This document shows positions 6,214 through 63,160 of a DNA stretch of 64,000 bases, piece after piece. Both the position numbers and the translations under genes were made by a program. Origin of the DNA: Multifurca ochricompacta (Eukaryota; Basidiomycota; Agaricomycetes; Russulales; Russulaceae); assembly GCA_022496185.1 (NCBI GenBank), contig WTXG01000103.1, positions 62,001 through 126,000 of the forward strand, written 5' to 3'. The notes beneath the pieces are model-generated. The model worked only from the letters and a program-made list of their open reading frames with translations. It searched no databases and was not told the DNA's origin. The first letter of the stretch is position 1; the number at the start of each line of letters is the position of its first letter.

Positions 6214-9200
6214 TCACGCACCATAATGAACAAAGTTCACCCACCGCTCCAGAGTCATCCCTTTCTTTCTCCTCATCTTCCGCGTCGCATCACGAAGCGC
6301 CCTCGCAGACCTCAAGTGGTAATGTACCCCTTGTCCATTCCCAGAGAACATTGACTTGTAGAAATTCTCTGCAATTTCAGATCCATCAACATCCGCCATC
6401 TCCCACATCGTCCCCACCACACTTCGAAACCCACAGTATTGCACTGCCGCAGTAAGATGAAGTCCCTCGTCAGCAATACTGTCATCTGTCAATTCCGCAG
6501 TGTGGCATGCAGCAAGGAATGCAAATTCAGCAGCAGGCAGTTGAGAGCGTACGATGTCGAGTAGAGTAAGGTGCTTATCATTGAACAGCTTGAATGATGC
6601 ATCGAATGGTTTCCCAGTCTCGAGCTTGCCATGACACACGAAATGTACCAATCCGTGATGTCGCAGTCCTTCCACCACACCAGCCGGTGTCGCATTCTTC
6701 CCACAGAGGGTGGTCACTGGCACCCGCGAATTGAAAGACTGTATGATTTCCATCTCTCCAAAAGCGCCTGGTAAGGATTCATCTGGATTAGCCACAAGGA
6801 GTAACGAAGGTTGGTAAGATGTTTTTGGACTAGGTTTGCGAGACTCGATGAGTGCAGAGAGTGTCGGTGTATATGAAGGGATATATAGATCTGAAAAGTA
6901 TCGCTTGACACCATCATTTGATGGGATTGGGCCCATCGCATGAAGTGGAAGTGAGCAGAAAACAGAGGTCGGACACCACCAGATTCGAGATTGTTCTGGT
7001 ACACCCAAAGTGCGGAACTTGTTAATGACTGGTTCGCCGACGAGGTTATAAAGGCCCTCGAGTACAGAACGTAAAGCACGTTTGTATTCGCCTGAATCGA
7101 GACCCTCCTTTCGTGCGACCACTAGGCGATCTCTTAGTTTATTTGCACGGTCGTAGAAATCGTTAGTTGTAGGGATAAGGGAAGGGGGAGTGTCTTGAAA
7201 GAGTATGAGGATATCGGAACGCCACTCGTTATGATTGATAATAATGACTGGCCCATGTGAAGCGGCAGAACGAATAGTTTCGAACGACGACGTCTTCAGA
7301 AAGTCTCCGTACCCTGGTAATTCTTGGATCTGTGACACGAGCAGATCCCGCTCCTCCAGAAGCTTCTGTTGCTTCACCACCAGACGACCGAATGGGTCCA
7401 TCCCATCACCAATCTGTGATCCACCATTGCTGATCTCTATAGTCCCACTCGGCGTGACAGACATGGTGAGTGACTCGAGATCCTGATTAATTGCTGCAAG
7501 TTTCGTTGCTAAAGGTGAATTGAATTGAGAAAGTTGATCCATCGAACTGCGAAGACCACGCATTTCAGACCATAGTAAGGCTCTCCCTCGTTCTAGAGTC
7601 TCAATAGCCTGAGTGAATTGACCCATGTCGATCTGGTAAGACGCGTAGTCCAGTGGCATCTTGTCACCGACCCCTCGCATTAAGACGAGTCGAGCATGCT
7701 GTATTTGTAAGGTCGGCGCGGCGACAGATGAGGTCTGTATTAATGACATGGCCTTTTGGTATGCATCAGAGACGGACGGGTGCCTGGCTGATCGCGCAAA
7801 GGTTGCCCAGCGGCATGACAAAAAAAATCGGTGAGATACCGTTGCTGATTTGTCATTGACACCCAAACGAATTAGCTCAATGATTTCATCCAAATCCTGT
7901 CTTCGACCAAGCAACCTGAAGCGTTGGGATAAAGACTCGAAAAGTTGTTGGATTACAATGAAGTGGTATGGCTGCGCGCTTTTCATTTCGAGAACACCAC
8001 GATGCACGGTGATAGACTCGTCAAGGTACTCCATTTTATTCGAACTCTCAAACGCCATGTAGAGGTCAAAGCCCAAATCGAATGCCGGATGGGATCCAAA
8101 TGGATGACTCGTGTCAGCTGACGCAATTAGTACCCGGCGGCACTTGATCCCTTCTTCAAGGTCCCTGATATCGTTGGTACGAGAAAACTTGGTTATATAC
8201 CAATGCGCAAGACGTTCGAGGTACTCGTTGTGCTTGGAGGACCTTGGCGGAGTCCTGGAGATCAGCTTTCGAAGATTTTGAATTTTCTCTTCTACCGCCG
8301 CCATCGGATACGCTGTCCGGACAGCTTCCACATAGTCAATATTTTCTGCAAATATACCGTGAGGTGAAGACGATGCAAAATCGACTATTTCGGAAGTATA
8401 TGAACGTGCTTCTTGAAGGGCTTCTGTGAGACCGAAGTTACTGAAGCGCTCCTTAGCGAGGGATGCCACGTGATAGGTAGCTATTTGCCGAATGTCGTTG
8501 TCAAGGGAAGAAGAGCCGAGTAAGGTACGATAACGGGAAATCGCCTCCTCTAAATATTCTGGGTTTGGATAGAGGATAGCCCGAACGCGCGCAAGAGTCG
8601 CGGCAAATGCCAAAGCTTCATTCTGAGTTTGACTGGGGTCATTTCCAAGAGGACTTGAGGCAATGACACTTTCTAGGAGGGTCATTGCCTCATCATAATC
8701 GCCATCCGAATAATCTCTCCGAAATCGAATTAAGAGGGCAGCAGCCAGTACGAGAAGAACTAGGTGAAAGTCCGGCAGGGATATCTTCAGCGCGTCCCGA
8801 AGGCATTGGATGACTCCATCTAACGGCTGTATTTGCTTCCCTTGAAGAAATTTGCGTAAAATGGCGTTGGCCAAGGCGGGAATGGCGTAAGTTAAATAGT
8901 TTTCTGAGCTGTGACAGGTGAGAAATTCTTGGCAGAGCATCACCATCTCCTCAATATCCCCCGTCCCATCCGCTTCCAGCTTAACTTGAATACCCAACAC
9001 CTGAACAAGCAATATTGTGACAACTTTGTGCGAGACCTCAAAGGTATCAAGAGGTAGTCCTCGGAGATGACGAAGGTATTCAACCGCACACTTGACATCT
9101 TCAGGTTGATTGAATTCCTTCCAACGATGAAGAAGGCAAAGTACGAGTTCAAAGAAGACTTGAACCACGTTTAGGTATAATCCCCATGAAGGTGGAAGAA

Positions 9201-9478
9201 AGATAGCTTCGGTCCAATGAAGAATGGATTTGTCAAGATCTTCCTTCTGTTTTGATAGCTTATAGCGTATGAATCGTGATTCAGCCAGAATATAAACGCA
9301 GGCAGTGTAAGTGGGATGAGATCGAGGGATCCTTGAGAGAACACGCTGAAGATAAGTGATGATTTGGTCGAGTTCAATAATGGAGACTGCGAATAAGAAA
9401 AAAATGAATTACTGATGATAGAAGGGCATATGCTCGGGAAAGAGGTGACAAAGTTGTGCACTTACGTTCTTGGGCCAT
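6214..9478 (-). CDS. TPR-CHAT protein, copy 2 (intact)
   Basis: A 13-nt exon 1 (9466-9478), a 79-nt GTAAGT...CAG intron (9387-9465) and one long exon (6214-9386) give 3,186 nt, or 1,061 aa. The intron length is not a multiple of three, so splicing is required. Roughly the first 700 residues form degenerate TPR-like repeats (for example RDLEEGIKCRRVLI and EYLDESITVHRGVL). The last 330 form a CHAT domain, a caspase/separase-fold peptidase module, with the expected dyad H923 in HFVCHG and C965 in FLAACHT. The protein is cytosolic by default: I see no signal peptide or membrane segment. In other organisms CHAT proteins act in regulated proteolysis and cell death; the role of this fungal family is not known to me. 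It is one of two intact copies in the window. Confidence 0.9.
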
Positions 9479-9598
9479 GCTTTATTCAATGTACAAGAAT
9501 CACAGTAACTGGGAGTCCTCTGGCAATAAATTGAGAGAGTAAACGGCGAAAAGGGTTTTGGGTGCTGGAGAACGGCGAAGACCACGCCAGAATACATG

Positions 9599-9605
9599 TT
9601 TTATA
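9599..9605 (-). promoter_or_regulatory. TATA box of TPR-CHAT copy 2
   Basis: TATAAAA on the minus strand, about 121 nt upstream of the ATG at 9478, in the same conserved context as the other copies. Confidence 0.6.
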
Positions 9606-9697
9606 GAGCATGAGCATGAGGTCAAAATGAGGCAACGAGGCAATGGTGGGCGGCTGTTCCCCGGCCCGTCAACCCGGTATGGTTTGCTTGATGAACA

Positions 9698-10989: not shown

Positions 10990-11007
10990 AACACCAGGGG
11001 CCACATT

Positions 11008-11168
11008 TGTTGAGCCGGTAAAGGACCAGAGTTGGCCGGACCGGATCAGAGGTGACCGGAGTTGTTGGTGCAAGGCGGAGTTAAGTGGACATTGTAATAT
11101 ACTTACTGACACTCCACTCGTTCATTATGATTACTTATGATTAAGATACAATCCTTTATGACCATAAC
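11008..11168 (+). mobile_element. 3'-truncated copia-type LTR fragment
   Basis: It starts TGTTGAGCCGG and matches the first 150 or so bases of the complete LTRs at 20529-20940 and 23644-24039. It is cut off before the transcribed part of the LTR and abuts a copia pol remnant. Confidence 0.8.
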
Positions 11169-16627: not shown

Positions 16628-19600
16628 TCAAGCACCATAATGAACAAAGTTCACCCACCGCTCCAGAGTCATCCCTTTCTTTCTCCTCATCTTCCGCGTC
16701 GCATCACGAAGTGCCTTCGCAGACCTCAAGTGATAAGGTACCCCTTCTCCGTTCCTAGAGAACATCGACTTGTAGAAATTCTCTGCAATTTCACTTCCAT
16801 CTATATCTGCCATCTCCCACATCGTCCCCACCACACTTCGAAACCCACAGTATTGCACTGCCGCCGTAAGATGAAGTCCCTCGTCAGCAATACTGTCATC
16901 TGTCAATTCCGCAGTGTGGCATGCAGCAAGGAATGCAAATTCAGCAGCAGGCAGTTGAGAGCGTACGATGTCGAGTAGAGTAAGGCGCTCATCATCGAAC
17001 AGCTTGAATGATGCATCGAATGGTTTCCCAGTCTCGAGTGTTCCATGACACACGAAATGTACCAATCCGTGATGTCGCAGTCCTTCCACCACACCAGTCG
17101 GTGTCGTGATCTTCCCACAGAGGGTGGTCACCGGCACCTGCGAATTGAGAGACTGTATGATTGCCATCTCTCCAAAAGCGCCTGGTAAGGATTCATCTGG
17201 ATTAGCCACAAGGAGTAACGAAGGTTGGTAAGATGTTTTTGGACTAGGTTTGCGAGACTCGATGAGTGCAGAGAGTGTCGGGGTATATGAAGGGATATAT
17301 AAATCTGAAAAGTATCGTTTGACACCGTCATCTGATGGGATTGGGCCCATCGCATGAAGTGGAAGTGAGCAGAAAACGGAGGTCGGACACCACCAGATTC
17401 GTGATTGTTCTGGTACACCCAAAGTGCGGAACTTGTTAATGACTGGTTCGCCAACAAGGTTATAAAGGCCGTCGAGTACAGAACGTAAAGCGCGTTTGTA
17501 TTCGCCTGAATCGAGACCCTCCTTTCGTGCGACCACTAGGCGATCTCTTAGTTTATTTGCACTGTACGGACGTGGTCCGCGGTGAGTAAGAGGCAAAGCG
17601 CGTTTCCCGAGAGGAGAGAGAGAGACAGAGGAGAGAGGAGGAAGGAAGAAACCCAGGATAACTTTGATGTCGAAGGAGAGATGTCGTTGTACTTTTTGAA
17701 CTTGCAAATACGTGCTTGCTGGTTCCGTTTGACCTTGCGCTGGACGATGTTGAGGTTCTTTAGCACACAGAAGAGAAAAGAGAGAGAGAGAGAGATTCCT
17801 AGGTTGCTTGTTCACTGGCTGGTCTACTACAAGCATTGTATGTACCTTTATATACTTGTGGAGAGACCTAGCTGAAGGAAAGTTTTAGAAAATAAACAGA
17901 GGTGAAGCCATGTGGGGTGAACGAAAGTGGAATAAGTAAAAGGGAGTAAGGGAGAAACCGGGTAGCCGGGTGTACGGAAAAGAATAGGCAGGCGGCCCGG
18001 AACGCGCACAATCCCTGTAATATGCTAAGTAAAATTACTTGTACCATAGATCAATCACGCTTTGCACCGGTGTCAGAGTCTGTCCGAAACTAAAGTCAGG
18101 CAAATGTTAGAAAATTTATTGACAGTATAGTATGGAAGAATGAGAGCAAACGGGTCCTGCCAGAAGTGGTGATGACCGGAGGTTTCGCGTCCAACGCCCG
18201 AGCCATCCTTACAGCACGGTCGTAGAAATCTTTAGTTGTAGGGATAAGGGAAGGGGGAGTGTCTTGAAAGAGTATGAGGATATCGGACCGCCACTCGCTA
18301 TGGTTGATAATGACGACTGGCCCATGTGAAGCAGCGATACGAATGTTTTGAAATGACGGCGTCTTCAGAAAGTCTCCAAACACTGGTAATTCTTGGATCT
18401 GTGACACGAGCACATTCCGCTCCTCCAGAAGCTTCTGTTGCTTCACCACCAGACGACCGAATGGGTCCATCCCATCGTCAACCTGTGATCCAGCATCGCT
18501 GATCCCTATAGTCCCACTCGGCGTGACAGACATGGTGAGTGACTTGAGATCCTGATTGATTGCTGCAAGTTTCGCCGCTAAAGGTGAATTGACACCAGAA
18601 AGGTGATCCATAGAATTGCGAAGACCACGCATTTCAGACCATAGTAATGCCCTCCCTTGTTCTAGAGTCTCAATAGCCTGAGTGAATTGACCCATTTCGA
18701 TCTGGTAAGATGCGTAGTCCAGCGGCATCTTGTCGCAGAGCCCTCGCATTGCGACGAGTCGAGAATGCTGTATTTGTAAGGTCGGCGCGGAGACAAATGA
18801 GGTCTGTATTAATGACATGGCCATTTGGTATGCAGCAGAGACGGACGGGTGCCTGGCTGATCGCGCAAAGGATGCCCAGAAACATGACAAAGCAAATCGG
18901 TCAGATACCTTTGCTGATTTGTCATTGACAGCCAAAGGAATTAGCTCAATGATTTCATCAAAATCCTGTTTGTGACCAAGTAATTTAATGCGTTTGGATA
19001 AAGACAAAACAAGCTCATGAATCACTTTGAAGCGGAATGGCTGCACCCTTTGCATTCCGAGAACGCCACGATACACGGTGATAGACTCGTCAAGGTACTC
19101 CATTTTATTCGAACACTTAAACGCCATGTCGAGGTCTAAGCCCAAAGAGCGTGCTGATAGGAACCAAGATATGTTACTCGTGTCAGCTGACGCAAGTAGT
19201 ACCCGACGGCACTTGATCACCTCTTCAAGGTCCTTTATATCGTTGGTATGAGAGAACTTGGTTTCATACCAATTCACGAGATCCCCGATGTGTGTGTTGT
19301 GATTGGAGTTGCCCAGGGGAGTCTTGGAGATTAGTTCGCGAAGATTTCCGATTCTCTCCTCTACCACCGTCATCGGATAGGCCACTCGAACAACATCCAT
19401 ATTATCAAATTTGCCCAGAGCTGATGGTGATGCAAGGTTGGCCATTTCAGAAGTATAATAACGTGCTTCTTGAAGAGCTTCTGTGAGACCAAAGTTCTTG
19501 AAGCGCATCTCAGCGAGGGATGCCATGACATGGGTAAATATATGCCGAAAGTAGTTGTCAAGGGAAGAAGAGCCGAATAAGGTACGACAACGGGAAATCG

Positions 19601-20523
19601 CCTCCTCTAAATATTCTGGGTTTGGATAGATGCCAGCCCGAGTGAGTGCAAGAATCGCGGCAAATGCCGAAGCCCGAATCTGATCATCCCGAAGAGGACT
19701 TGAGCCAATGATACTTTCTAGGAGGGTCATTGCCTCATCGTAATCGTCATTCGAATAATTTGTTCTGTATCGAATGAAGAGGGAAGTAGCCAGTCCAAGA
19801 AGAACTTGATGAGGCCCTGGAGGGAAGATCTTCAGCGCGTCCCGAAGGCATTGAATGACTCCATCTAACGGCTCTACTTGCTTCCCTTGACAAAATTTGC
19901 ATACAATGGCAGAGAACAAGGCGGTAATGGCGTGAGTTGGATAGTTTGCTGAGCTGTGACAGGTGAGAAGTTCTTGGCAGAGCATCACCATCTCCTCAAT
20001 ATCCCCCGTCCCACCCGCTTCCAGCTTAACTTGAATACCCAACGCATCAACAAGCAATATTGTAGCGACTTTGTGTGGGACCTCAAAGGTATCAAGGGGC
20101 AGTCCTCGAAGATAACGAAGGTATTCAACCACACACTTGACATCTTCAGGTTGCTCGAATTCATTGGAACGACGAAGAAGGGAAATTACAAGTTGAAAGA
20201 AGACTTGAACCACATTTAGGTATAATTCCCAGGAAGGTGGAAGAAAGATCGCTTCAGTGTAATGAAGAATGGATTTGTCAAGATCTTCCTTCTGTTTTGA
20301 TAGCTTATAGCGTTCAAATCGTGATCTGGCCAGAAGGTGGATGTAGGCAGTATAAGTGGGATGAGATTGAGGGATCCATGAGAGAGCACGCTGATGAGAA
20401 GTGATGATTTGGTCGAGTTCCATAATGGAGGCTGCGAATAAGAAAAAAATGAATTACTGATGATAGAAGAGCATATGCTCGGGAAAGAGGTGACAAAGTT
20501 GTGCACTTACGTTCTTGGGCCAT
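16628..20523 (-). pseudogene. TPR-CHAT protein, copy 3 (split by an LTR)
   Basis: ATG at 20523, exon 1 20511-20523, 79-nt intron 20432-20510, then open sequence to 18218, where it is interrupted by a 651-bp LTR (17563-18213, TSD GCAC). The rest, including the whole CHAT domain with HFVCHG and FLAACHT, resumes at 17562 and ends at 16628. Apart from this insertion the two halves are open and highly similar to copies 4 and 5. The break falls between the TPR-like region and the CHAT domain, so two truncated products could in principle be made. A second LTR (20529-20940) lies only 5 bp upstream of the ATG. Confidence 0.85.
17563..18213. mobile_element. Solo LTR (651 bp) inside TPR-CHAT copy 3
   Basis: Runs TGTACGGACGTGG ... 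CCATCCTTACA with GCAC on both sides (17559-17562 and 18214-18217). The other four copies show the uninterrupted target TTTGCACGGTCG. It shares about 400 bp of diverged sequence with array segment S, which suggests S derives from the same retroelement group. Confidence 0.8.
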
Positions 20524-20528
20524 GCTTT

Positions 20529-20940
20529 TGTTGAGCCGGTAACGGATCAGAGTTGGCCGGACCGGATCAGAGGTGACCGGAGTTGCCGGTGCAAGACGGA
20601 GTTAAGTGGACATTGTAATATACCTACTGACATTCCACTCGTTTACTATGATTACTTATGATTAAAGATACAATCCTTTATGACCATAGCACAGCACACT
20701 CTTTACAGTATTTAAGGACATTATTTCTGTGTTGTACACTTCAGTTTTGACCATTCACAAACTGAAGTGAGTATCTACTTAGATTATCTTTACCACGCGT
20801 ATAGCTAACATTACTCGCGTAGTTATCTTGCTACCCGTTTAGGTAAAGACTAATTAATGTACAGTTTTGACCATTCACAAACTGAATTATCTTGCTACCC
20901 GTTTAGGTAGCGCTTATCTAACCTCAGCTGCGTTTCCACA
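20529..20940 (+). mobile_element. Solo LTR A (412 bp) with intron and its spliced duplicate
   Basis: TSD GCTTT at 20524-20528 and 20941-20945; ends TGTTGAGCC and TTTCCACA. TATA-like TATTTAA at 20709. Exon 1 20742-20766 (palindromic, CAGTTT...AAACTG), intron 20767-20822 (GTGAGT, CTAAC branch-like motif, GCGTAG), exon 2 20823-20842 (TTATCTTGCTACCCGTTTAG), spacer 20843-20861. Then 20862-20906 repeats exon 1 plus exon 2 exactly (45 nt) without the intron. It separates TPR-CHAT copy 3 from its own TATA box. Confidence 0.9.
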
Positions 20941-21061
20941 GCTTTATTCAATGTACAAGGATCACGGTAACCGGGGGTCCTCTGGCGATGAATTGAGAGA
21001 GTAAATGGCAAAAATGGTTGTGGGTGCTGGAGAATGGCGAAGACCACGGCTATAATACATG

Positions 21062-23387: not shown

Positions 23388-24290
23388 TCATGCATTAGAA
23401 GAACTTGGCGATCGAGAGAGAATGTGTTGAAATAATCGACTCCTTATATTTGAGTGAAACTGTATGCGACAAGTCTTGCTATGTACTTGTCCACGGTACT
23501 GTCGGCCTTGCGTTCGACATGAGAAACCCATTTTGATCTGACTATATTCTTGTTTTCTGGGAGTGGTACTGTAATCCACGTTTTCACCTTTTCCAGTGTA
23601 AGGATTTTGTGGTCCATGGCCTCCTTCCAAAAAGGCCAGTCTTTGTATAGAAACGCAGCTGAGGTTAGATAAGCGCTACCTAAACATAGCAAGATAATTC
23701 AGTTGTGGTTTGACCATTCACAACCAATGGTCAAAACTTTGTATTAATTAGTCTTTACCTAAATGTAGCAAGATAATTACGCGAGTAATGTTAGCTATAC
23801 ACGCGATAAAGATAATCCAAGTAAATACTCACTTCAGTTGTTGATGGTCAAAACTGAAGTGTACAACACAGAAATAATGTCTTCAAATACTGTAAAAGAG
23901 CATGCTGTGCTATGGTCATATCTTTAATCATAATGAATGAGTGGAATGTCAGTAATGTCCACTTAACTCCGTCTTACACCAGCAACACCGGTCACCTCTG
24001 ATCCGGTCCGGCCAACTCTGATCCATTACCGGCTCAACACTTCGCATGTTTGAGCTTCAACGAGTGACTCTGGATCGCCTTCGGCATCTTCAATAGCTTC
24101 TGCAATCATATTGTCATATTCTGCCTGATAAGCATAAACTGTGTCTGCAAATAGGTCAGCGATAGATGCAGAGATTCTTCTTGGGTATCCGGATGGTGAT
24201 ACTTGAGCTTCAATGGTATCTATCCATGCTGTGGCTGCTATTCCAATACATAATACAGCTTGCATATTTCATTCTATGTAACTCAAAAAA
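23388..24290 (-). pseudogene. Copia pol remnant P2, interrupted by LTR B
   Basis: The minus-strand frames contain DWPFWKEAMDHKILTLEKVK, PENKNIVRSKW and DKYIARLVAYSFTQ, the fingers region of a Ty1/copia reverse transcriptase. Upstream residues (DAEGDPESLVEAQ) lie on the far side of the inserted LTR at 23644-24039. No catalytic YVDD is present, so this is a dead fragment. Confidence 0.75.
23644..24039 (-). mobile_element. Solo LTR B (396 bp), degraded intron/spliced-duplicate LTR
   Basis: On the minus strand it runs TGTTGAGCCGG ... TTTCTATACA, and is related to LTR A. The hairpin exon is at 23833-23856, with the intron donor GTGAGT reading leftward from 23832. The acceptor AG is mutated to AA next to exon 2 (23759-23776). 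A rearranged but recognisable spliced duplicate is at about 23667-23742. Flanks share only CTT, so the TSD is imperfect. Confidence 0.75.
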
Positions 24291-28058: not shown

Positions 28059-29807
28059 TTACTTAGGCGAGTTAATCTCTAGCCCAAGTTGACTCCTGAA
28101 TTTCAGGAATTTGACGCGTCCCAAATTCTTGGTGAACATGTCTGCGGGATTCTCAGAGCCTTCAATAAAGAATAGCTCAATTTTCTTCTCCTGTATAATT
28201 TGTCTGATGTAGTGGAAGCGGATATCAATATGTTTTATCCGTCGCTCTTGTACAGGATTAGAGGCCATAAAGATGGACCCCTGGTTATCACCGCAGAGAG
28301 GAATGGGTCCTAGATCAATGCCAATTTCGCTTAGAAGCGATTTGATCCATACAATCTGTCGCGTTGTGTCAGAAAGCGACATGTATTCTGCTTCAGTGGA
28401 TGAGAGCGCTGTGGTCTTTTGCGCTCTAGAATTCCAGCTGAATATCCCATTCGCTATTTTCACCATGTATCCAGTAGTGGATCGGCGATCTATTGGGTTT
28501 GACGCCCAATCGGAATCAGCGCACGCGATCAATCCGCCATTTGATCTGCCATCGTAGATAAGCGTGTAATCGGATGTGCCGGCTAAATATCGGCAGATAT
28601 ACAGCGCTCGATCAAGATGATCTTGAGATGGATTAGCGGCAAATTGAGATAGCCTTGTAACTGCAAAGGCAATATCTGGTCGCGTGCCCAACATAATGTA
28701 AAGTAATGAGCCGATTACTTGTTGGAACTTTGAACGAATGGAAGGATCTGCAGGTTCAGTGTTAGGATCTGGATGATAGCCTTCTGGGAGAGGAGTGGGC
28801 GCAAATTTCGCGTTAAGCATCCCAAAGCGTTGCAGCACTTTAGTTAGGTATGGCTGTTGATCAAGTAGAATTTTGCCATCCTTCCTAGTTATGCGCATTC
28901 GCAAGAACTCCTTTGTGTCTCCTAGATCCCTGCACTCCCATTTGTTCATGAAATCAGTCTTTAGTTTACTGACTAGGACTTTGTCATTTCCCATAAATAA
29001 AGCATCATCGACATATACAATGATGATGACGATTGACCCATTATTAGCCTTATATAGAAATAGGCCTGAGTCCGAGAGTAGGCGTTTACAGCCCATCGCA
29101 GCCATGGACTTATCTAGCGCCTTCCACCATGCTAAGGCAGCTTGTTTAAGACCATAAATGGCGCGTTGTAGTCGTAGTACTTTGGTTTCTTGTCCTTTAA
29201 TTTTGAAACCTTCAGGTTGTTCCATGTATAGCTCTTCATCTAGTTCACCATACAGGAAAGCGCTTTTGACATCTAGTCCAGTGATGTGCCAATCCTCAAG
29301 CGCGGCAAGCGCGAGCATCAATCGGACAGTCTCAAACCTTACAACAGGCGAGAATATTTCATTGAAGTCAACGCCTTCAACCTGAGAAAAGCCTTTGGCT
29401 ACGAGCCTGGCTTTCTTACGACCATCAGATTTCTGGTCAAAGACCCATCTGTTTTTAATTGTCTTCCTCCCTTTGGGAGGGTCCACAAGCGTAAAGACTT
29501 TCCGTCTGCGAAGTGCCTCAAGTTCTTCGCGACATGCAGTCTTCCATTCCTTTTGTTGCGCGTCAGGCATGCGCAAAATATCTTTATATGTCCACTCTCG
29601 TATATTGGACATGTCTAGTGGCTGTGAATCATGTGGAACTGCTTTGGCGAGCAGATAATTCACAAATTCTCCTCCCCCTTCCTGGGCTAGTTGAGATACG
29701 AGATCTACTAGATCCTCAACTTCATCATCACTCCCATTTATGGGTGTAAGCGGATCGTCGCTAGTGCGGGCCGGAGTGTCGAGACTAGGACCAGGAACCT
29801 GTCTCAA
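28059..29807 (-). CDS. Copia reverse transcriptase-RNase H (intact frame)
   Basis: A 582-aa frame covering the C-terminal half of copia pol. In order it carries KNRWVFDQKSDG...ARLVAKGF (fingers), VYVDDALF (RT catalytic motif, about 29004-29015), DSDWASNPIDRRSTTGY and SSTEAEYMSLS (RNase H), and NPADMFTKNLG near the end. The first 90 or so residues are the linker after integrase. It overlaps the integrase frame at 29804-29807, where the frame changes, so as it stands it is separated from its upstream domains. Confidence 0.9.
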   Translation of the reverse strand: MRQVPGPSLDTPARTSDDPLTPINGSDDEVEDLVDLVSQLAQEGGGEFVNYLLAKAVPHDSQPLDMSNIREWTYKDILRMPDAQQKEWKTACREELEALRRRKVFTLVDPPKGRKTIKNRWVFDQKSDGRKKARLVAKGFSQVEGVDFNEIFSPVVRFETVRLMLALAALEDWHITGLDVKSAFLYGELDEELYMEQPEGFKIKGQETKVLRLQRAIYGLKQAALAWWKALDKSMAAMGCKRLLSDSGLFLYKANNGSIVIIIVYVDDALFMGNDKVLVSKLKTDFMNKWECRDLGDTKEFLRMRITRKDGKILLDQQPYLTKVLQRFGMLNAKFAPTPLPEGYHPDPNTEPADPSIRSKFQQVIGSLLYIMLGTRPDIAFAVTRLSQFAANPSQDHLDRALYICRYLAGTSDYTLIYDGRSNGGLIACADSDWASNPIDRRSTTGYMVKIANGIFSWNSRAQKTTALSSTEAEYMSLSDTTRQIVWIKSLLSEIGIDLGPIPLCGDNQGSIFMASNPVQERRIKHIDIRFHYIRQIIQEKKIELFFIEGSENPADMFTKNLGRVKFLKFRSQLGLEINSPK

Positions 29808-30952
29808 ACGCGCGATGGAATCGGGGAGCTACCCCGGGGTTCCACTGCTCGTCTCCATTGCCGCATCCGCTGAATGTCTGTAATCTGATCGACGGGGTGC
29901 CTGTTATCCCCATAGACATTCCCAGGGCGAAGTGCAACTTTCCTTTCCCGTGTAGAGCGCCGCAAAGGCACTGGTTGTTGTTCTGGCACAGGAGAAGGCA
30001 AGGGTACCTCTGGCTGTGAAGCGCTAGGTTCTTCGTCAAGAACCTGAGGTCCTTCTATTTGTTTGGAAGGTGGAAGGCGAGATGGTAGGAAATCATCATC
30101 GTCCACTAAAGGAATGGGCTGTGTTTCTGGCCCTTCATTAATTAGAGGCTCATTCAATTTAGTAACTCCACGCCGTCTGGTGGAATCACACTTAGGGAAG
30201 AGATTCTCATCAAATAGGGCTGTGGCTTGCGTGTACAATGTATTATTGCCAAGCCGCATGAACAGATGGCCTTTAATGCCATCTGCATGCCCAATATACA
30301 CCATAAGTTCTGACTTAGGTGATAGTTTATTGCCACGACGTTCTTCCGGAATGTAGACATAAGCACCACATCCAAAGACGCGCAAATGAGAGATCTCTGG
30401 TGCTTCTCCATACAGTATCTCATAAGGTGTCTGCCATTTCAGGCGACGTACAGGAGTCCTATTGTAGAGATGTACCGCATGTAGTACAGCAAATTCCCAC
30501 CAAGAGTCTGGAAGACATGACTCAATGCGCATTGATTGCGCTTTATCCATACAAGTGCGCATGAAGCGCTCCGCGCGGCCATTTTGTTGGGGAGTATAAG
30601 GCGCGCTCTGTAGAATTTTATCCCTTCATCTTTTAATACATTCATAAATACATCAGATTTGTATTCTCCACCAGCATCAGACATCCACTCTTAATGGTGG
30701 TGTTATGTTGATTTTTGATCATGGCAAGGAATTGTCGCAAAGCGTTTATTGCAGCAGACTTAGTGCGCAAACATACAATCCATGCAAATGACGTATAATC
30801 ATCAATAAAGCTGATAAGTATTTGTATTTGTGATAAGATTCTACCGGGAAAGTCTTAAGATCTGAATGAATGCGCTCAAAAGGCTTTGAGGCACGTGTTT
30901 CAGATGGTAGATAAGATGCGAAGGCATCTTGCCTTGCGCGCATCCCGGGCAT
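29804..30952 (-). pseudogene. Copia integrase (frameshifted)
   Basis: Pieces in different frames: FERIHSDLKTFPVESYHKYKY (30746-30952), SDAGGEYKSDVFMNVL (30439-30684) and the C-terminal part AVHLYNRTPV ... PYEILYGEAPEISHLRVFGC (29804-30562), with the acidic linker ending in STRERK. The two Asp-bearing motifs (HSDL, SDAGGEY) are present, but the region after FYRARLILPN is out of frame with what follows, so there is no continuous integrase. Confidence 0.8.
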
Positions 30953-31333
30953 AGGGAGCTGTCTTCGGATAAGATAGATCTAGGGGGAATCCCTTAGTGT
31001 GATCTTTGGCATGACGTAAGACTTCCTTAGAAGGATGTCCTAAGCGCTTATGCATTAGATCGTAATCTACATTATAGATTGTGGAGTAAGATCGCGAATT
31101 AGCGATCTTAGAATGAAGCCAATAGATAGTTTGGCCAGTAATTGCCGGATGGCATTGAATAATTGGGATTTTAGATCCCTATTTCGCAAGGTTAATTCAT
31201 GTTCGTCCCCATAGACGTACAATCCTTGCTTGAGAACTCTCCGACGCTCAGAAGTCTTCCAGTTATATCAGGGATGTAATATACTGGATATAAACGCGTT
31301 GTACGCGTTTTCGTGACTCCGTTGTGTGTGACA

Positions 31334-31699
31334 TCATGTTCTAATAGAACAGTACCTTTCCCTTAATATAAATAGGTTTAGAAGCCGTTTGACGGGTTCT
31401 GGGGTACTAATGTCTTCATATTCAATGAAATCGTCGAGAGAAAATGTAAAGTGCGATGAAGCACCTGAATCTAAGAGCCAAGTTATATGGCCTTCATCCT
31501 TAGTCTTTCCTTTGCACTTAGCACACTGAACATGATGTGGAGAATGCAATATATTTGTACATAACCTAAAGTCATGTATAGTGCTAACTACGCCTGCATT
31601 TCTAATGCTCTTTGTAGGGGACTCCCTAGAAGCGCGAACTAATGAAGCATAAATGCATCTGTTAGTTTTACAGGGTAGAAGGAAAGAGGGGACATACAC
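31334..31699 (-). pseudogene. Copia protease region
   Basis: Contains TWLLDSGASSHFTF, the aspartic-protease active-site motif of Ty1/copia polyproteins, preceded by CAKCKGKTKDEGH. The frame closes shortly after, at YCSIRT, and is not in frame with gag (ending 31963) or integrase. Confidence 0.8.
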
Positions 31700-31962
31700 A
31701 TCCTGATCGTCGTCCTCATCTAGGCCAGCCAGATCAGCCAGCTGATCATCAAGATGATCGGAGCCCCAATCAAGAGGATCATTGGGGTCCTCTTCGTCTT
31801 CTGTATCGACGGTGATAGGTGAGGGGGATCTAGATTTTTGCGCGGTCGCTCATCTCCATCCTCTTCAAGGTCCTCCAGCTTGGTCTTGCTGGACGACGTC
31901 TTGAGAAACTATCAGTTATGCGGGTCTCAAGGGGTTTAAATTGTGAGCGGTCCCCGGCACAC

Positions 31963-32982
31963 CTATGTCTTCGCACAGATCCATAGCTTGGTTAAAAGCA
32001 TGATACGGCCAGGGATTCGCTCCTTAGGAGTGGTGCGCATAACGATACGAGGCCTTCCATTCCTATAGTGAGTTTTAAAGGAAGGAGGAGAGGGAACGGA
32101 TGGCACGGTGGTGAATCGAGGAGGGGGGAAGAACGCTTGATTAGCGATGTGTGAGTGCCCCTGTGCCTTAGATTGCTGATTATCTCGATTCTGCCTTCCG
32201 GCACGACGCCCGCGTTGGTACTTGTGATCCGCCTGTTTTTCCGCGTGCTCTGGCTGTTTGCCTCCAGATTGTTTCTGCTGGCTGAAGCGAGGATCACCTC
32301 GCTTCCGCTTGACTGCTGAGAGCTTATTAGCAGAATGGGGGTTTTTACCCCTGGAGCGGTCTTGCTCCCACTGAGCAAGGATGGCACTGCGGACTACTGG
32401 GAGGTTTATGTCAGAATGAGATCTTCCGACAAGGATGGTTGGGATGAGAGCCTCCCATCTAGGAGGAAGGGTGTGTAAGAGCAGCATTCCCTGCAGCATA
32501 TCAGGGATGGTAACGCTATTGGACTCAAGCCGCTCAAAAGCGACTTGGAGACGATTGATCTGAGGGGCAGGGTGCTTTGATGAGTCCAAGCGGAAGTTCA
32601 GGGCCTCCTTGAAGTCCCTGAAGATCGCAGATGGTCCCACAGCGCCGTACTTAGCTTTGAGGGCTACCCATAAAGCGTTAGCGGAGATCGTGGAGCGGTG
32701 TTCCTGCTGAATAGAAGCAGATAGGCGCAGGACAATGGTGCCGATGGCTCGATTGTCAGCGCGCTCCCATTCCTTCTGATCTCTGAGCTCATCTGCAGTG
32801 GGATGCTGCTCATCCTTGGCAGTAATTTTAAGATCAGTGCCATTGGTTATTTCCCAGAGTCCATTGGCCATGAGGTAGGCCTGCATGATTCCAACCCATT
32901 CGTGGTAGTTGGATCCGTCACAGACGGGACAATGGTAGTGAGTTGAGACGACATTGTTGGGATGTGATAAGGGTTTTGACAA
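31963..32982 (-). CDS. Copia gag polyprotein
   Basis: A 339-aa frame with the UBN2/Retrotran_gag type fold: YHCPVCDGSNYHEWVGIMQA near the start, EWERADNRAIGTIVLRLS, and ALWVALKAKYG. A basic, Gln-rich C-terminal half could bind RNA. The first in-frame start-like codon is TTG at 32982, and there is an in-frame TGA not far upstream. The true initiation site may therefore lie in another frame (an ATG at about 33019) or be joined by a leader intron with acceptor TTTTACAG. Confidence 0.8.
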   Translation of the reverse strand: MSKPLSHPNNVVSTHYHCPVCDGSNYHEWVGIMQAYLMANGLWEITNGTDLKITAKDEQHPTADELRDQKEWERADNRAIGTIVLRLSASIQQEHRSTISANALWVALKAKYGAVGPSAIFRDFKEALNFRLDSSKHPAPQINRLQVAFERLESNSVTIPDMLQGMLLLHTLPPRWEALIPTILVGRSHSDINLPVVRSAILAQWEQDRSRGKNPHSANKLSAVKRKRGDPRFSQQKQSGGKQPEHAEKQADHKYQRGRRAGRQNRDNQQSKAQGHSHIANQAFFPPPRFTTVPSVPSPPSFKTHYRNGRPRIVMRTTPKERIPGRIMLLTKLWICAKT

Positions 32983-33091
32983 AAGGGTTTGAGTAGTTGA
33001 TTTCTGTAAAAGAAGTCATGGTCAGCATTGAATGCGACAACCGGTACTCAAAACACAAAGCAAAAACCCAGGCTCTTTAGACTCCATTGAT

Positions 33092-34079: not shown

Positions 34080-34732
34080 TTAGGACAAGATCCTCATTCG
34101 CGTTCTCCCTCACGACAGGGCCGATGCGCTCACTAACAGCCAGACAGTCTTAGAGTAGTGACCCCCTGGGGTGGTGCCAGTGAGGTGCTTACTGTGTCAA
34201 GCCAATAATTCATAGCCTGCATGGTGATCTCTGAAGCCCGAGTAGCGGTGACAGAGGTTGCTTGGTCATTAAGGGGTGTTATCGCGGGATCGTGTGCATC
34301 CTGATCACTGGTGCGGGATCTTCTACCAAGGAGTGTAAAACCCGGTCAGACAAAGGGGGCCCCGCGAGAGCGGTGACAGGCACAGAGAGGAGGCCGAACT
34401 GAACCATTTTAGGAAGCTCTTGGGCTTGTGTCCCCTGAGTGAAGAGGCAGGCAACAGGTCGAGAAGACTGAGCCAGACAGCCTTGGGCAACGCTACTTTT
34501 CTCATTTCATTTTCTTGGTACGATCGTCATCGCCGCTGCATCGGGTCTGGATCTTTGAATCCGAGATCTATTGGCCAGCTTGATCGATCTACCCTTTCCT
34601 CCTGTGCTTAGTGTTGCGCGGCACTTGTATCTTTGCTGTTAGTTCCCCAGATTTTTCGGACTGGCTTCTAGGAGAGACGTCCACCCCCACACACACTACC
34701 GACCGTACTCAGTTTCACACTCACGCGCGCGA
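34080..34732 (+). other. Gypsy leader
   Basis: A 5' untranslated leader between the LTR and gag. The small frames on both strands have no recognisable features. Confidence 0.6.
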
Positions 34733-36160
34733 TTGCGCATTGCTTCAGCTTCTCGAGCATCCTCACGCTCTCCCTCTCCCATTTCAATTCACTCTCCTGA
34801 AACTCAACGTAGAGGTAGACAGACAACTAGACAGTTAGATCGACGACCCAGGACAGCTACAGTCAGTGGACTTGTACTTGCACCCGCAAACGAGCCACTT
34901 CCTAGTCAGACTACTCCTGAATCGACTACTCCTGTCCCAGAAAGTTCTAGTATTTCCGCCCCTACTCCACAAATTCAAAGTCCAGAAATGTCCGCACCCA
35001 CCGCATCCACTTCCACCTCTACCCTCTCCCGCGATGATGTTAACCGAGCGCTCCACGACATGGCGGTCACTGTTAGGGATTTGGCCCGAGATGTGCAAAC
35101 GCTGACGCAGCACCAGGCACAAGCTTCGGCATCTCCACCTCAGCACACCCTTGCTACTGGGAAGGATTCTCCAGTAGCGCGCCCTGCGTCTTGGGATGGC
35201 AAGGGGACTTCAGTGGACGTGTGCCATTTTCTGGCAGCTTACCACAATTGGGCTCACTCACAGAAGAATAGTCTAAACGATTACAATGTGCAAACCCAAA
35301 AGTGGATTAGGAGAGACTCTGATTGGATCTTATCCGTTCTCAATCTTCTAGCCGGAGACACCCGGACTTGGGCTCTGCCGCATTTGGAAGAATTGAAGGC
35401 CGGGAGGATCCCCTTTAACCAAAGATGGGATAATTTTGAAAAGACATTCACAGAGCGATTTATTCCTTACGATATAGGGGAGGCTGCGCAAGAAGCATTG
35501 AAGAAACTCAAACAGGGCAAGAATTCAGTCGCTGAGTACAAGGCTCGCTTTGATGAACACTCAGCTCAAACTGGCTGGTCTGCGACCGATCTGAAGACTC
35601 GATTCTATGACGGGTTGACAGATAAGATCAAGGACATCTTGGCCCTCATGCCGACTACTCCTGCAACGCTAGAAGAGCTTGTCACCGCCGCAAATAAAAT
35701 CGACATGCGACAGAGACAACGCGATGCAGAGAAAAGAGGGGTGATTACCACACAAACTTAAACTCAGACTACGCGCGATCCCAATGCTATGGAGGTCGAC
35801 GCTTCGAAGACTCAGTCAGGGGCTGGTACTAAGACGCTGCGCCAGTACATGCTGACTGATCTCAAAGGTAAATGCAAGGGTTGTGGGACCACCGCTCACG
35901 AGTATAAGCAGGGAAATCATGAGTGCGAGATTTGCAATTATTGTGGGAAGACAGGACACCGAGCTAACGTTTGTTATGATAAGTGGTTGGGTAAACCCAA
36001 AAAAGCAAAAGTTGCTGCCAGCACAGAAGCGGCGGCAAGTTCAAGTACGAGTGTCTCGGCGCCGTCAGACACCTCAGCCAGTCAAAAGGAGAAAGCTGAT
36101 TTGAAGGCGCAGGTAGAATCACTACGGAAAGAAATGGAGGCGTTGAAAGCGTCTTTTTAG
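34733..36160 (+). pseudogene. Gypsy gag with one in-frame TAA
   Basis: A single reading frame, open from about 34733 (first in-frame ATG at 34988) to TAG at 36158-36160, interrupted only by TAA at 35759-35761 where a Gln codon (CAA) is expected in a Gln/Thr run. The capsid-like region includes FNQRWDNFEKTFTERFIPYD and KQGKNSVAEYKARFDEHSA (Retrotrans_gag). A CCHC zinc knuckle (CNYCGKTGHRANVC) lies at 35933-35974, followed by a coiled-coil-like tail. Confidence 0.85.
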
Positions 36161-39100
36161 AAACTGTCTCAGTTCCAGCTGCGACTGAGGCAGCATGTGT
36201 AAATAGTGTGCTTATTGATTCTGATTCCAATGTATTTACGAGCGTTCAAGAAGTTACTGATACAACTGTCTGTGAAACGGCCTCTGTAAATAGTGTAAAT
36301 AGTTGTGTAATCGCGTCAGATTCGGTCTCGCAGAAAATTAAAAATGTTTTCATTGATGAGGCTGATTACTTAGATAAGATAACTGCATGTATTTTACCTG
36401 AGACGAAGCACGATACTCAGCATTTCCATATTTACATTACATTGAGAGGAAGAAACCACCTATACACGACAGCAGCTATGGTAGATTCAGGGGCTACTGC
36501 ACTGTTCCTGGATGAGAAATTCGCTCAGCACCGGAAGATGCTTCAAATCCCACTCGATCACCCCATAAAAATTCATAATATTGATGGGACGCACAATCGA
36601 GCAGGGGATATCACGCATTATGTATCGCTAGCGATTATAATAGGCCAACAGGAGGAGAGCCACCGTTTCCTGGTCACAGACTTAGGACCAGAGAAAATTA
36701 TATTGGGGCTTCCTTGGCTGCGACGTAACAACCCAAGCATCGACTGGAGCAAGGGTGAACTGATGATCGACTCCGAGAGCGGGACCGCTGAGGAGATTGG
36801 ATCTGTCGAACGCATATCGGCTAGCCGTATGGAGCGCCGATCACTGTGTCGAACCGGAGTCCTGGAGACGCTGTCCGATCAAGTCTGGTGTCTAGCCGGC
36901 TATACATATTCACAGCAAATAGCCAAGCGTGAGAACCTGAAAAGGGGCAGTAGATCTTTTGAGGAGATGGTACCCTCGCAGTACCGGGACTTCGCGAAAG
37001 TTTTCTCCGAGGAGGAATCACAGAGACTCCCTCAGCATCAACCATGGGATCATGAAATAGATTTAGAACCAGGTGCTAAGACGCACTGGAAGACTAAGAT
37101 CTACCCCATGGCACCGAATGAGCAAGCGGAGTTAGACAAATTTATTGACGAACACTTATGAAAGGGATACATTGTACCATCTAAGTCACCGATGGCCGTC
37201 CCCGTGTTCTTCCTGAAAAAGAAGGACGGGAAATTAAGACTTATACAGGATTACCGTCCTCTTAACAAAATTACAATTAAAAACTGTTATCCGCTACCGC
37301 TTGCTGCAGACATCATTAACCGGCTGAAAGATGCTAAGATCTTCACCAAATTCGATGTCAGATGGGGATATCACAACGTCAGAATTAAGGAAGGGGACGA
37401 ATACAAGGTGGCCTTTGCTACTAACCGTGGATTATATGAACCGCACGTTATGTACTTTGGCCTGACCAACAGTCCTGCCACCTTCCAGGCGTTGATGAAC
37501 TCAGTCTTTGCTGACATGATTGCAAGAGGAGAGGTCGCAGTATACATGGATGATATACTGATATTTTCATCTAACTTGGAGAAACATCGGAAAGATGTGT
37601 GTAGAGTACTTAGCCGTCTCCAAGAGTATGACCTTTTCCTCAAGCCTGAGAAATGCGAATTTGAGAGAGATCAAATGGAGTATCTTGGGATGATTATCCG
37701 TCCCGGAGAGGTCAGGATGGACCCTGCCAAGGTCCAAGCGGTCAGAGAGTGGCCGATCCCACAGAATTTGAAGGACGTTCGCGCCTTTGTGGGATTCACT
37801 AACTTCTATCGACGCTTCATTAAGGACTTTGCTGGTATAGCACGTCCCTTACATGACCTGACTAAGAAAAATATCCCATGGCAATGGGGCAATGTGGAGA
37901 TGAATGCGTTCGCAGCGCTGAAGGCACGCTTCATAGAAAAGCCAATATTAGCAGTCTATGATAGCGAGAGGCCAACGCGCTTGGAGACGGACGCTTCCGG
38001 ATTCGCTACCGGTGGAATACTGTTGCAGAAACACGACGACGAGCTATGGCACCCAGTCGCATTCCGATCTGAAGCAATGTCGGACACGGAACGTAACTAT
38101 GAGATTTACGACTGGGAAATGCTCGCATTGATCTGAGCACTGGAGGATTGGCGACACTTCCTTGAAGGACTATCTACCTTTGAGGTTGTAACTGATCACA
38201 AGAATATGGAATGGTGGGCTAGCATGTGCGACTTAACATGACGTCAAGCACGCTGGGCCCTGTACCTCAGTAGATTCAACTTTGTGATTAGATACAAGAA
38301 GGGATCAGCAATGCAAGCTGATGCTCTTAGCCGATTCCCTACAGATCGCATGTATGACAGTGAGGACAACCGTCAGGTACAAGTCCTCAAGCCGGAACAG
38401 TTTCTCCGGGCCGCACGTACCCATTACAAGCCAGAGAGCTCTCCTCTCACAGATCGCATCAGAGCAGCAGGCGCACGTGAAGCGGAAGTCATAGAGGGGT
38501 TGAAATCCCTATCCAGATCCGCTCCGCGCGTTCTTACTGATGGCGTTTCTCACTGGGAGGAGGAAGACGGTCTCGTTTATTACAAGGGAAAACTTTATGT
38601 ACCTAATGTACCAGATCTCAGAAAAGATATCATTAAACAGTGTCATGATTTGGTTACTGCAGGACATCCCAGTAAGAATGGGACTATAGAACTTGTCAGC
38701 CGTTATTATTGGTGGCCGCGTATGTCTACATACATCGCCAAGTACATAGAGGGCTGCGATCGCTGTCAATGCTACAGGATCGACCAGCACCCTACAGCGC
38801 CTATACAGCCGCACGAAGTACCGGAGGGACCCTGGCAGATCATCGGAGTTGATCTGATCACTGGGCTTCCTTCTTCACAAGGGAAAGACGCAATATTAAT
38901 GATAGTGGACCACTATACGAAACAAGTCCACTTCTTCCCTGTGACCAGCAGCATCACGGCAGATGGTGTAGGGCAGATCTACTATAACGAGATCTTCCCG
39001 CTGCATGGGATCCCTAAGTCTATCGTCAGCGACAGGGGACCACAGTTTGCAGCACGGACAATGCGGGCCGCTTTAAAGCACCTGGGAATAGATAGTAGTT

Positions 39101-39867
39101 TGACCACAGCGTATCATCCTCAAGCTAACGGACAGGCAGAACACAAAAACCAAGAGATAGAACAGTATTTGCGTATGTTCGTAGATAAGCGTCAGGATGA
39201 TTGGATCGAACTATTACCCACTGCGGAATTTGTGTTGAACGCAAGATTGACATCTGCGACCGGCCACACACCCTTTGAACTACTCTACGGGTACACGCCG
39301 GACTTCACGATTCCAGCTGGGCGCCCTACAGGCATTCCCAGTTTAGACAAGCGACTTCAACAGCTCCGTCTTGCCAGGACAGATGCTGAGGCAGCGCTGC
39401 GACTTAGCAAAGAATGCATGATCGCCGGGCCAGGTTACCGCCAATCTTATCGCTTCAGCACAGGCGATATGGTATGGCTCCAAGCCAAGAACATTAAGAT
39501 ACACCAACCTTCTCAGAAATTAGGGCCAAAACAGATGGGTCCCTTTAAGATTATCGAGAAGATTGGCGATCTTGATTATTGGTTAGAACTCCCAGCAGCG
39601 CTGAGAATCCACAATGTATTCCATGTGGATCGCCTTAGTCCCTACAAAGGCAATGACGTTAATGGACTTATGCCACCACCGCCTGACCCTGTACTGATCG
39701 AGGGCGAGGAAAAGTATGAGGTTGACCATATTCGCGATGTGAAACTGTTTGGTTGAACACTCAAATTCCTTGTGCGGTGGAAAGGATACGGCGAAGGGGA
39801 GGACTCATGGGAGCTGGCCAGAAACTTCAAGCTCGCTCAGGAGGCTGTCAGAGACTTTTACGCTTGA
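36158..39867 (+). pseudogene. Gypsy pol (PR-RT-RH-IN-chromodomain), four TGA stops
   Basis: One frame, -1 relative to gag, from the gag stop to TGA at 39865-39867. It contains protease MVDSGATALF (about 36480), RT VYMDDILIFS (catalytic 37543-37554), RNase H LETDASGFATGG, an integrase HHCC finger ending CDRCQ (about 38640-38770), the catalytic-core motifs GVDLITG, SDRGPQF and HPQANGQAEHKN, and a C-terminal chromodomain (FLVRWKGYGEGEDSWE). TGA interrupts it at 37159, 38134, 38239 and 39754. Each sits where chromoviruses carry Arg and is explained by CGA to TGA. No indels are needed. Confidence 0.9.
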
Positions 39868-44000: not shown

Positions 44001-44792
44001 TGCCTCCTCGTAATCGTCGTTTGAATAATTTTTTATGTATCGAATTAAGAGGGAAGCAGCCAGTCCAAGAAGAACTCGATGAGAGCCTGGCGGTAAGATC
44101 TTCAGCGCGTCCTGAAGGCATTGAATGACTCCATCTAACGGCTCTACTTGCTTCCCTTGAAAATATTTCCATAAAATGGCATGGACAAAGGTGGTAAAGG
44201 TGTCAGCTGGATAGTTTGCTGAGCTGTGACAGGTGAGAAGTTCTTGGCAGAGGATCACCATCTCCTCAATATCCCCCGTCCCATCTGCTTCCAGCTCAAC
44301 TTGAATAGCCAATGCTTGAACAAGCAATTTTGTGACGACTTCGTGCGAGACCTCAAAGGTATCAAGGGATAGTCCTCGGAGATGACGAAGGTATTCAACC
44401 GCACACTTGGCATCTTCAGGTTGATTGAATTCATTGGAACGACAAAGGAGGGAAATTACAAGTTGAAAGAAGACTTGAACCACATTTAAGTAGAATCCCC
44501 AGGAAGGTGGAAGAAAAATCGCTTCGGTGTAATGAAAAATGGATTTGTCAAGATCTGCCTTCTGTTTTGATAGCTTATAGCGTTCAAATCGTGATCTTGC
44601 CAGAAGGTGGATGTAGGCAGTATAAGTGGGATGAGATCGAGGGATCCATGAGAGAGCACGCTGATGAGAAGTGATGCTTTGGTCGAGTTCCATAATGGAG
44701 ACTGCGAATAAGAAAAAATGAATTACTGATGATCGAAGGGCATATGCTTGGGAAAGAGGTGACCAAGTTGTGCACTTACGTTCTTGGGCCAT
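41031..44792 (-). pseudogene. TPR-CHAT protein, copy 4 (3' end altered by hAT-type insert)
   Basis: ATG at 44792, exon 1 44780-44792, 78-nt intron 44702-44779 (stop-free, in frame), then one long exon. The TPR-like region and the CHAT dyad (HFVCHG, FLAACHT) are intact. A 502-bp element (41134-41635) interrupts the last 33 or so codons. Read-through ends at 41562 with about 22 foreign residues after YHLR, giving 1,050 aa when spliced instead of the ancestral 1,057. The original tail survives beyond the insert (to 41031). Since both catalytic residues remain, a product with an altered C-terminus is conceivable. Confidence 0.85.
41134..41635. mobile_element. hAT-type non-autonomous element (502 bp), 8-bp TSD
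   Basis: Ends TAGTGATGT ... ACATCACTA. The TSD ACCTCAAG lies at 41126-41133 and 41636-41643. Both subterminal regions are very rich in GGCCCGGC/AAGCCG motifs and the centre is AT-rich. There is no transposase. Eight-bp duplications and short TIRs of this kind fit the hAT superfamily. Confidence 0.9.
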
Positions 44793-44912
44793 GGTTTATT
44801 AAATGTACAAGAATCACAGTAACCGCGGATCCTCTGGCGATGAATTGAGAGAGTAAACGGCGAAAATGGTTGCGGGTGCTGGAGAACGGCAAAGACCACG
44901 CCAGAATACATG

Positions 44913-44919
44913 TTTTATA
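44913..44919 (-). promoter_or_regulatory. TATA box of TPR-CHAT copy 4
   Basis: TATAAAA on the minus strand, about 121 nt upstream of the ATG at 44792, in the conserved context. Confidence 0.6.
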
Positions 44920-45000
44920 GAGCATGAACATGAGGACAAAACGAGGCAACGAGGCAATGCAGGGCGGCTATTCCCCGGCCCGTCAACCCGGTACTGTTTG

Positions 45001-62757: not shown

Positions 62758-63160
62758 TGTTGGAAATGGATCAATATGGCCAGGTCGGATCAATCGCTAA
62801 GTGTGTGGTACTAACAAGCGAGTTGTGTGTTGTGCAGTAGCACGCGGACTGTGTTTCACCTTCCTGTGAATACTTTGATACCTTACTTGATTAGACACAA
62901 TCCTTTATTGTCTTGGTTACTATAAGCACACTCGTTTACAGTATTTAAAGGACGCTTTTACTGTACAGTTCACTTCAGTTCTGACCAACACAACTGAAGT
63001 GAGTATTTTGTTATCTTATCTTTACCTATGTAGCTAATGCGTACTAGTTATAACTACCATTCTAGGTAAAGACTAATATTATCAGTTCTGACCAACACAA
63101 CTGAATTATAACTACCATTCTAGGTAGTTTGGATTATCTAACCTCAGGCTGCATTCTTTA
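62758..63160 (+). mobile_element. 5' LTR of a copia element with intron and spliced duplicate
   Basis: Starts TGTTGGAAATGG, homologous to LTR A. TATTTAAA at 62942; exon 1 62976-62998; intron 62999-63047 (GTGAGT, GCTAATG, ACTAG); exon 2 63048-63065 (TTATAACTACCATTCTAG); spacer 63066-63082; exact 41-nt spliced copy 63083-63123. It is followed at 63161 by GGTTATGGGCCCTGG, the same motif that borders the 5' LTR of the nested copia element, probably the primer-binding site. Confidence 0.85.

Follow-up and report, generated by a model that had tools for sequence, protein, structure and literature searches.

An intron lies within the 5' leader of the LTR elements HIV-2 and SIV, and in cDNA-mediated intron loss a spliced RNA is copied to DNA from which the intron is gone. 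The LTR family described in this work would share a leader intron with HIV-2/SIV, in which, however, no intronless copy is kept in the LTR to our knowledge. Its intronless LTRs recall cDNA-mediated intron loss; the difference is that the intron-bearing version and the spliced one adjoin within a single LTR and stay alike. As for foamy viruses, we know of no intron wholly inside their LTR and of no stored spliced copy. In the foamy-virus study (Schrom 2013, PMC3694450), the LTR carries a splice donor close to where the RNA starts, which governs poly(A) choice, and SHAPE probing with and without 13 upstream nucleotides gave different donor folds, a difference interpreted as blocking U1 at the 3' LTR. 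The likeness to that work is a donor fold that depends on upstream bases, in our case a prediction made on four examples. No description of an LTR that contains both an intron and its spliced copy was found in the searched literature, in which subscription journals were thinly covered; in PMC3411680, PMC2657110 and PMC5086612, term matches gave nothing on such an LTR arrangement.

LTR A and the element to which it belongs

The material comprised a 64-kb stretch of DNA, here called the window, and the 53.8-Mb genome of Multifurca ochricompacta. LTR A has the order U3-E1-I1-E2-spacer-E1'E2'-U5 (Table 1). Its second copy (E1'E2'; 45 nt, 20862-20906) equals E1 joined exactly to E2, and the identity extends by 3 nt (GTA). 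The direct repeats begin 120 bp (E1 to E1') and 64 bp (E2 to E2') apart. A preliminary description of this DNA had given E1, I1, E2 and the 45-nt copy correctly to the base; the TATA-like box that it placed 33 nt before E1 was recovered as TATTTAAGG at 20709, and its limits of the LTR hold, being flanked by the 5-bp duplication GCTTT. The window contains several related gene copies, and LTR A is inserted at the 5' end of one of them; its homology to the other gene copies breaks off at 20528 and picks up at 20941-20943. Open reading frames of at least 785 aa are present in four of the related gene copies, and a CHAT domain in the one at 41562-44795.

Table 1. Features of the window; positions are those of the whole 64-kb stretch.
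Feature	Position	Strand	Basis or remark
LTR A, solo LTR, Ty1/copia, family I	20529..20940	+	sequence, 5-bp duplication, genome matches
Target-site duplication GCTTT, left	20524..20528	+	paralogous gene region runs on across the insertion
Target-site duplication GCTTT, right	20941..20945	+	sequence
TATA-like box TATTTAAGG	20709..20717	+	sequence; begins 33 nt upstream of E1
Predicted hairpin, CACTT (U3) + E1 versus AAGTG of E1/I1 junction	20737..20769	+	fold prediction
E1, 25 nt	20742..20766	+	predicted RNA start A20743
I1, 56-nt GT-AG intron (GTGAGT...GCTAAC...TAG)	20767..20822	+	sequence, family comparison
E2, 20 nt, ends TAG	20823..20842	+	TAG end in 57/60 long LTRs
Spacer, 19 nt	20843..20861	+	sequence
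E1', intronless E1 copy	20862..20886	+	sequence identity to E1
E2', E2 copy fused to E1'	20887..20906	+	sequence identity to E2
I2, proposed second intron: spacer (GTAAAG...) + E1' + E2', TAG end	20843..20906	+	GTAAAG/GTAAAC in 56/60, acceptor-shift variants
U5	20907..20940	+	sequence
Related gene copies with shared flanks	1-2473, 6214-9677, 16628-20528, 41562-45049, 57271-60764		sequence comparison
Family I LTR fragment (U3 part) + few flanking bases	10998..11166	+	sequence comparison
LTR B, old family I copy; E1' with inverted insert, differs from own E1	23650..24039	-	sequence
Another copia-type element (RVT_2)	28059-33015	-	domain matches
Gypsy-type element (RVT_1, RNase H)	34643-39756	+	domain matches
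Family V site	62300-62490	-	E1 + I1; likewise at L010, L013, L020
LTR C, family II	62758..63160	+	start set by similarity within family II
LTR C: E1, I1, E2	62976-62998, 62999-63047, 63048-63065	+	sequence
LTR C: spacer, E1', E2'	63066-63082, 63083-63105, 63106-63123	+	sequence
PBS-like GGTTATGGGCCC after LTR C	63161	+	sequence

The LTR A family is a variant of Ty1/copia replication and no new element class. In the element L141 the domains are of copia type and follow the order gag - integrase - RT: one ORF carries Retrotran_gag_2 together with Pol_BBD, and a downstream ORF contains, in this order, rve/rve_3 (both under the curated cut-off), SH3_retrovirus and RVT_2; two further pieces of 179 and 142 aa had no Pfam match, and RNase H was not confirmed there. 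Besides copia-type gag, integrase-core, SH3 and RVT_2 domains, the family shares with copia the 5-bp target duplications (AGGCG in the L018/L019 pair, GTCAC in L141, GCTTT in the solo LTR A). A PBS-like GGTTATGGGCCC follows the LTRs and may correspond to the half-tRNA-iMet site of copia. The family differs from copia in that its LTR has two GT-AG introns, as proposed below, and also contains its own spliced start as an intronless copy. Pairs of LTRs were picked by spacing and strand, and the target duplication was checked in two; the LTRs stood 4600-4868 bp apart in eight elements presumed to be of the long form, and in an intronless element the distance was 4742 bp. The eight pairs showed 0-6 substitutions per about 375 compared bases, and as two pairs were identical over this length, the long form has been copied recently.

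The 15-mer spanning the E1/I1 border had 428 matches in the genome (53.8 Mb) and a control with the reversed pattern none. With the 412-bp LTR A as query, at least 41 genome matches were found among those listed, 40 of 680 candidates having been scored. The sample consisted of 92 of the first 100 listed 15-mer sites and 51 of the 85 matches for E1 joined to a base other than G. It yielded 140 different E1 sites preceded by U3 bases, of which 139 were parsed and one was not: 60 long LTRs (L), 38 intronless ones (P), five with I1 present but the second copy absent (S), 20 sites of family V and 16 truncated or odd ones. The long LTRs belong to four families (I, 20; II, 22; III, 11; IV, 7), so that the pattern for which a genome search had been proposed is a widespread architecture. 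Of 98 15-mer sites in the loci examined, 11 fell outside the 140 E1 sites because the first E1 was cut or degenerate, and three of these have a second copy: L059, whose first E1 is truncated away, and L040 and L070, which are degenerate and have differing copies. LTR B was excluded from the long forms because of the insert in its E1', and L069 (degenerate, family IV) from the identity counts. Exact patterns for families I-III, which cover the matched segment only and leave the rest of each LTR unchecked, had 258 genome-wide matches for AG-E2-GTAAA (the I1-E2-GTAAA part of the first copy), 289 for E1-E2-GTAG (second copies plus P) and 16 for AG-E2-GTAG, four of the latter being non-S (L128, C495 and two at C501).

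Several other elements of the window were inspected. The insert in E1' of LTR B is an inverted part of E1 (GTTTTGACCATT...AATGGTCAAAC) and resembles a snap-back in cDNA synthesis. Named matches of the copia-type polymerase at 28062-29828 include Trametes, Ganoderma, Rhodofomes and Phanerochaete (among 120 listed of 5884). At the 20 sites of family V, E1-I1 is present with the same hairpin and donor, and there is no second copy, which speaks against the model proposed below; pairwise likeness extends up to about 800 nt before E1, where the comparison stopped, and 340 nt after it. A subgroup (L100, L117, L118, L126, L127) has E1 joined to TTCTAGGTAG and shares the same downstream sequence on several contigs; it was therefore probably spread by segmental duplication.

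Agreement of the two copies and variants of their junction

In the 60 long LTRs, I1 is 49-70 nt long, ends with AG in 59 and has a branch-like YTRAY in all. As its donor GTGAGTAT belonged to the search pattern, conservation of the donor is no independent evidence. The segment designated I2 measures 54-65 nt; GTAAAG or GTAAAC follows E2 in 56 of the 60 LTRs, and E2' ends with TAG in 57, so that spacer, E1' and E2' together can be an intron. We take the I2 donor GTAAAG/GTAAAC to be weak compared with the general splice consensus. At the level of sequence, spliceosomal features are present in I1 (GT, branch, AG, short length) and in I2 (GT...AG). A second copy containing I1, stacked copies and E1E2-spacer-E1 forms each had no match in the genome. 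Splicing of I1 only would stack copies or leave E1E2-spacer-E1, and a second intron is proposed because neither was found; its removal would give E1E2-U5, the content of the second copy plus U5. I2 is thus probably a second intron that would be removed together with I1.

The two copies agree within individual LTRs. E1 equals E1' in 19/20, 21/22, 11/11 and 5/6 LTRs of families I, II, III and IV, respectively, and E2 equals E2' in 16/20, 22/22, 9/11 and 3/6, while LTRs of different families are 3.4-5.0 edits apart for E1 and 5.3-9.4 apart for E2. When second copies were shuffled within a family, an equally good fit was obtained in 0, 0 and 20 of 10000 trials for families I, II and III; family IV, with 10000 equal fits in 10000, has too little variation. 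At the eight LTR pairs with full-element spacing, E1 and E1' were identical in 16/16 LTRs and E2 and E2' in 15/16. E1 is unlike E1' in four of the 60 long LTRs (L006, L017, L065, L069), and also in the older, uncounted LTR B, L040 and L070. Tests for co-change on a U3 tree, with at most four independent pairs per site, gave no significance, and they pointed in one direction throughout. Spacer length differs within families of long LTRs. In front of AGTT, all 60 first copies have C, a base favoured by the search pattern, and second copies have C, T or A in 35, 17 and 8 cases; a variable base at the border of spacer and E1' fits a copied block that would begin at the RNA start. We consider it very probable that the second copy has been renewed in each lineage, more than inherited, and that this renewal takes place in every cycle.

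A few LTRs deviate at the junction. The preliminary description had named second copies diverging at the junction as evidence against its proposal. The outcome is mostly in its favour: the intron is absent from the second copy in 60/60 long LTRs; three further LTRs (C495 and two at C501) do differ at the junction, in the way that a moved acceptor predicts. A search for family I E1-TAG-E2 gave two places, C495 (long) and L128 (intronless). In C495, I1 ends with CTCGAGTAG (CTCGAG/TAG/, slashes marking junctions) as opposed to the usual CTCGCGTAG/, which places a new AG 3 bases upstream of the old one, and the E1-TAG-E2 of its second copy is the product of this new AG. Among 73 family I introns, 16 have a tandem acceptor, so that the coincidence in C495 is by itself not rare and no significance is claimed for it. 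L042 has a tandem acceptor and a normal second copy, in which case both acceptors would be used. The two LTRs at C501 have a tandem acceptor and a second copy of the form E1-E2-E2, in which the 20-nt E2 is repeated precisely from end to end; one of the two LTRs shows a single base difference there. This form would be expected if a C495-like parent spliced I2 from E2/GTAAAG to TAG/E2'. In L033, E2' is joined to CTGCG, before which relatives have CACAG; it was the sole case when families I and IV were searched for E2' joined to CTGCG. In L060, L071 and L148, E2' or E2 is joined to CGC, before which relatives have GTAG. The search for E2 joined to CGC gave seven matches, two of them ambiguous, and this junction could be due to slippage in TAGGTAG. 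Across these variants the ends of E1 and E2 are preserved, and the junction has shifted to an AG.

Intronless LTRs recur. The 38 P forms read belong to four families, four of them being cut short or deleted behind E1E2. On a U3 tree of 103 sequences the P label needs 29 changes (mean of shuffled labels 31.0; 124 of 500 shuffles as low), and at least 11 changes are forced by supported branches. In L141 both LTRs within one 5-bp target duplication are intronless; the intron was therefore lost there during replication. Landing of the cDNA on E1 would account for P forms, as would splicing of the 3' end; alternatively, P and S forms are also expected from deletion between the E1/E1' or the E2/E2' repeats. 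As such repeat-mediated deletion gives the same product, P forms alone were dropped as proof of splicing.

Proposed replication route and competing explanations

In the route that we propose, transcription would begin at E1. Near the capped 5' end, I1 and I2 (from E2/GTAAAG to ...TAG/GTAG) would be removed, which would give an RNA starting with E1E2-U5. The 3' end, by contrast, would be left unspliced, plausibly for two reasons: its I1 donor would be hidden in a U3-dependent hairpin, which a 5' end beginning with E1 could not form, and the RNA, with its putative poly(A) site, would end in or behind E1'E2'. The R repeats would then be E1E2 at the 5' end and E1'E2' at the 3' end. Strong-stop cDNA of E1E2-U5 would pair with E1'E2' and prime synthesis through spacer, E2, I1, E1 and U3, and the new LTR would regain both introns, its E1'E2' being a new copy of spliced E1E2. 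An intronless U3-E1E2-U5 LTR would result instead if the cDNA landed on E1 or if the 3' end were spliced. That the second copy derives from spliced cDNA is held with high confidence, and the model as a whole, in which strong-stop cDNA of doubly spliced 5' RNA rewrites E1'E2', appears likely. It seems reasonably probable that splicing is obligatory for renewal of the LTR, that R is split, that the acceptor is rewritten in each cycle and that the U3 hairpin picks the spliced end.

The predicted hairpin consists of the last five U3 bases (CACTT), E1 and the start of I1, and pairs the donor GTG. Folds were predicted for a single example per family in the four families: with the U3 bases, energies lay between -13.5 and -15.2 kcal/mol (z between -3.4 and -4.8), as opposed to -2.1 to -5.0 kcal/mol (z -0.2 to 1.3) for an RNA beginning with AGTT and hence devoid of them. 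We give an even chance to the idea that these folds act as a switch, with the donor free at the 5' end and closed at the 3' end. The E1 hairpin was also looked for in viral contigs, without a match.

A chance repeat or a one-off event was ruled out by the genome-wide copies together with the co-variation within LTRs. The spacer is recognisably related across the four families, as it would be after an old tandem duplication of E1E2-spacer in which one copy gained or lost the intron and no copying has occurred since. As the families have diverged and the copies nevertheless mostly agree within an LTR, a lone ancestral duplication without later copying is insufficient; the second copies of C495 and C501, which match shifted acceptors, also speak against this history, and we regard it as highly improbable. 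Homogenisation without splicing, by a reverse transcriptase that jumps between direct repeats or by gene conversion, is unlikely. In its favour, the repeats begin only 120 and 64 bp apart, and intronless and I1-only LTRs would be products of E1/E1' or E2/E2' jumps. It leaves unexplained, however, the TAG of C495, the exact doubling of E2 at C501 and the junction of E2' with CTGCG, and it predicts triplicates and E1E2-spacer-E1 forms, for which there were no matches. In addition, the shorter deletion, between E2 and E2', is the rarer one (at most 12 of 16 sites S-like versus 27 intronless LTRs in families I-III, with P partly read).

The proposal of the preliminary description was that the spliced 5' end of the element's RNA had been copied into cDNA and that strong-stop transfer had put this cDNA in place as the second copy. 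This idea is strongly supported by the co-variation and the junction variants; the particular route, in which I1 alone is spliced and the cDNA joins, once, an RNA ending in the spacer, is very unlikely. It would account for a second copy that resembles a splice product and begins where the RNA is predicted to start. Over repeated rounds, however, copies would be stacked, and no stacks were found; moreover, U5 follows directly after E2', so that the donor RNA must lack the sequence from E2 to U5. Strong-stop transfer is thus retained, while the single event gives way to renewal in each lineage, splicing of I1 alone is replaced by splicing of I1 and I2, and the old E1'E2' is the better acceptor than the spacer, the 3' end of the RNA presumably lying in or behind it. 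Strand transfer requires R homology, and selection, on this homology or on binding sites, might keep the copies alike in place of copying. It would not fix the fast-diverging E2 equally at both places in each family, nor would it produce odd junctions, and we attach hardly any credence to it.

Introns in the repeated end sequence of LTR elements that replicate through RNA should be lost. With renewal of the second copy from doubly spliced RNA, the LTR A family seems to solve this problem by storing an intronless R beside an intron-bearing R and refreshing it from spliced RNA. If this is true, splicing would be part of reverse transcription in this family, and the genome would record the choice of splice sites, including tandem and shifted acceptors, in many copies. 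Strand transfer and discrimination between the 5' and 3' ends in an LTR retrotransposon would thereby become directly testable.
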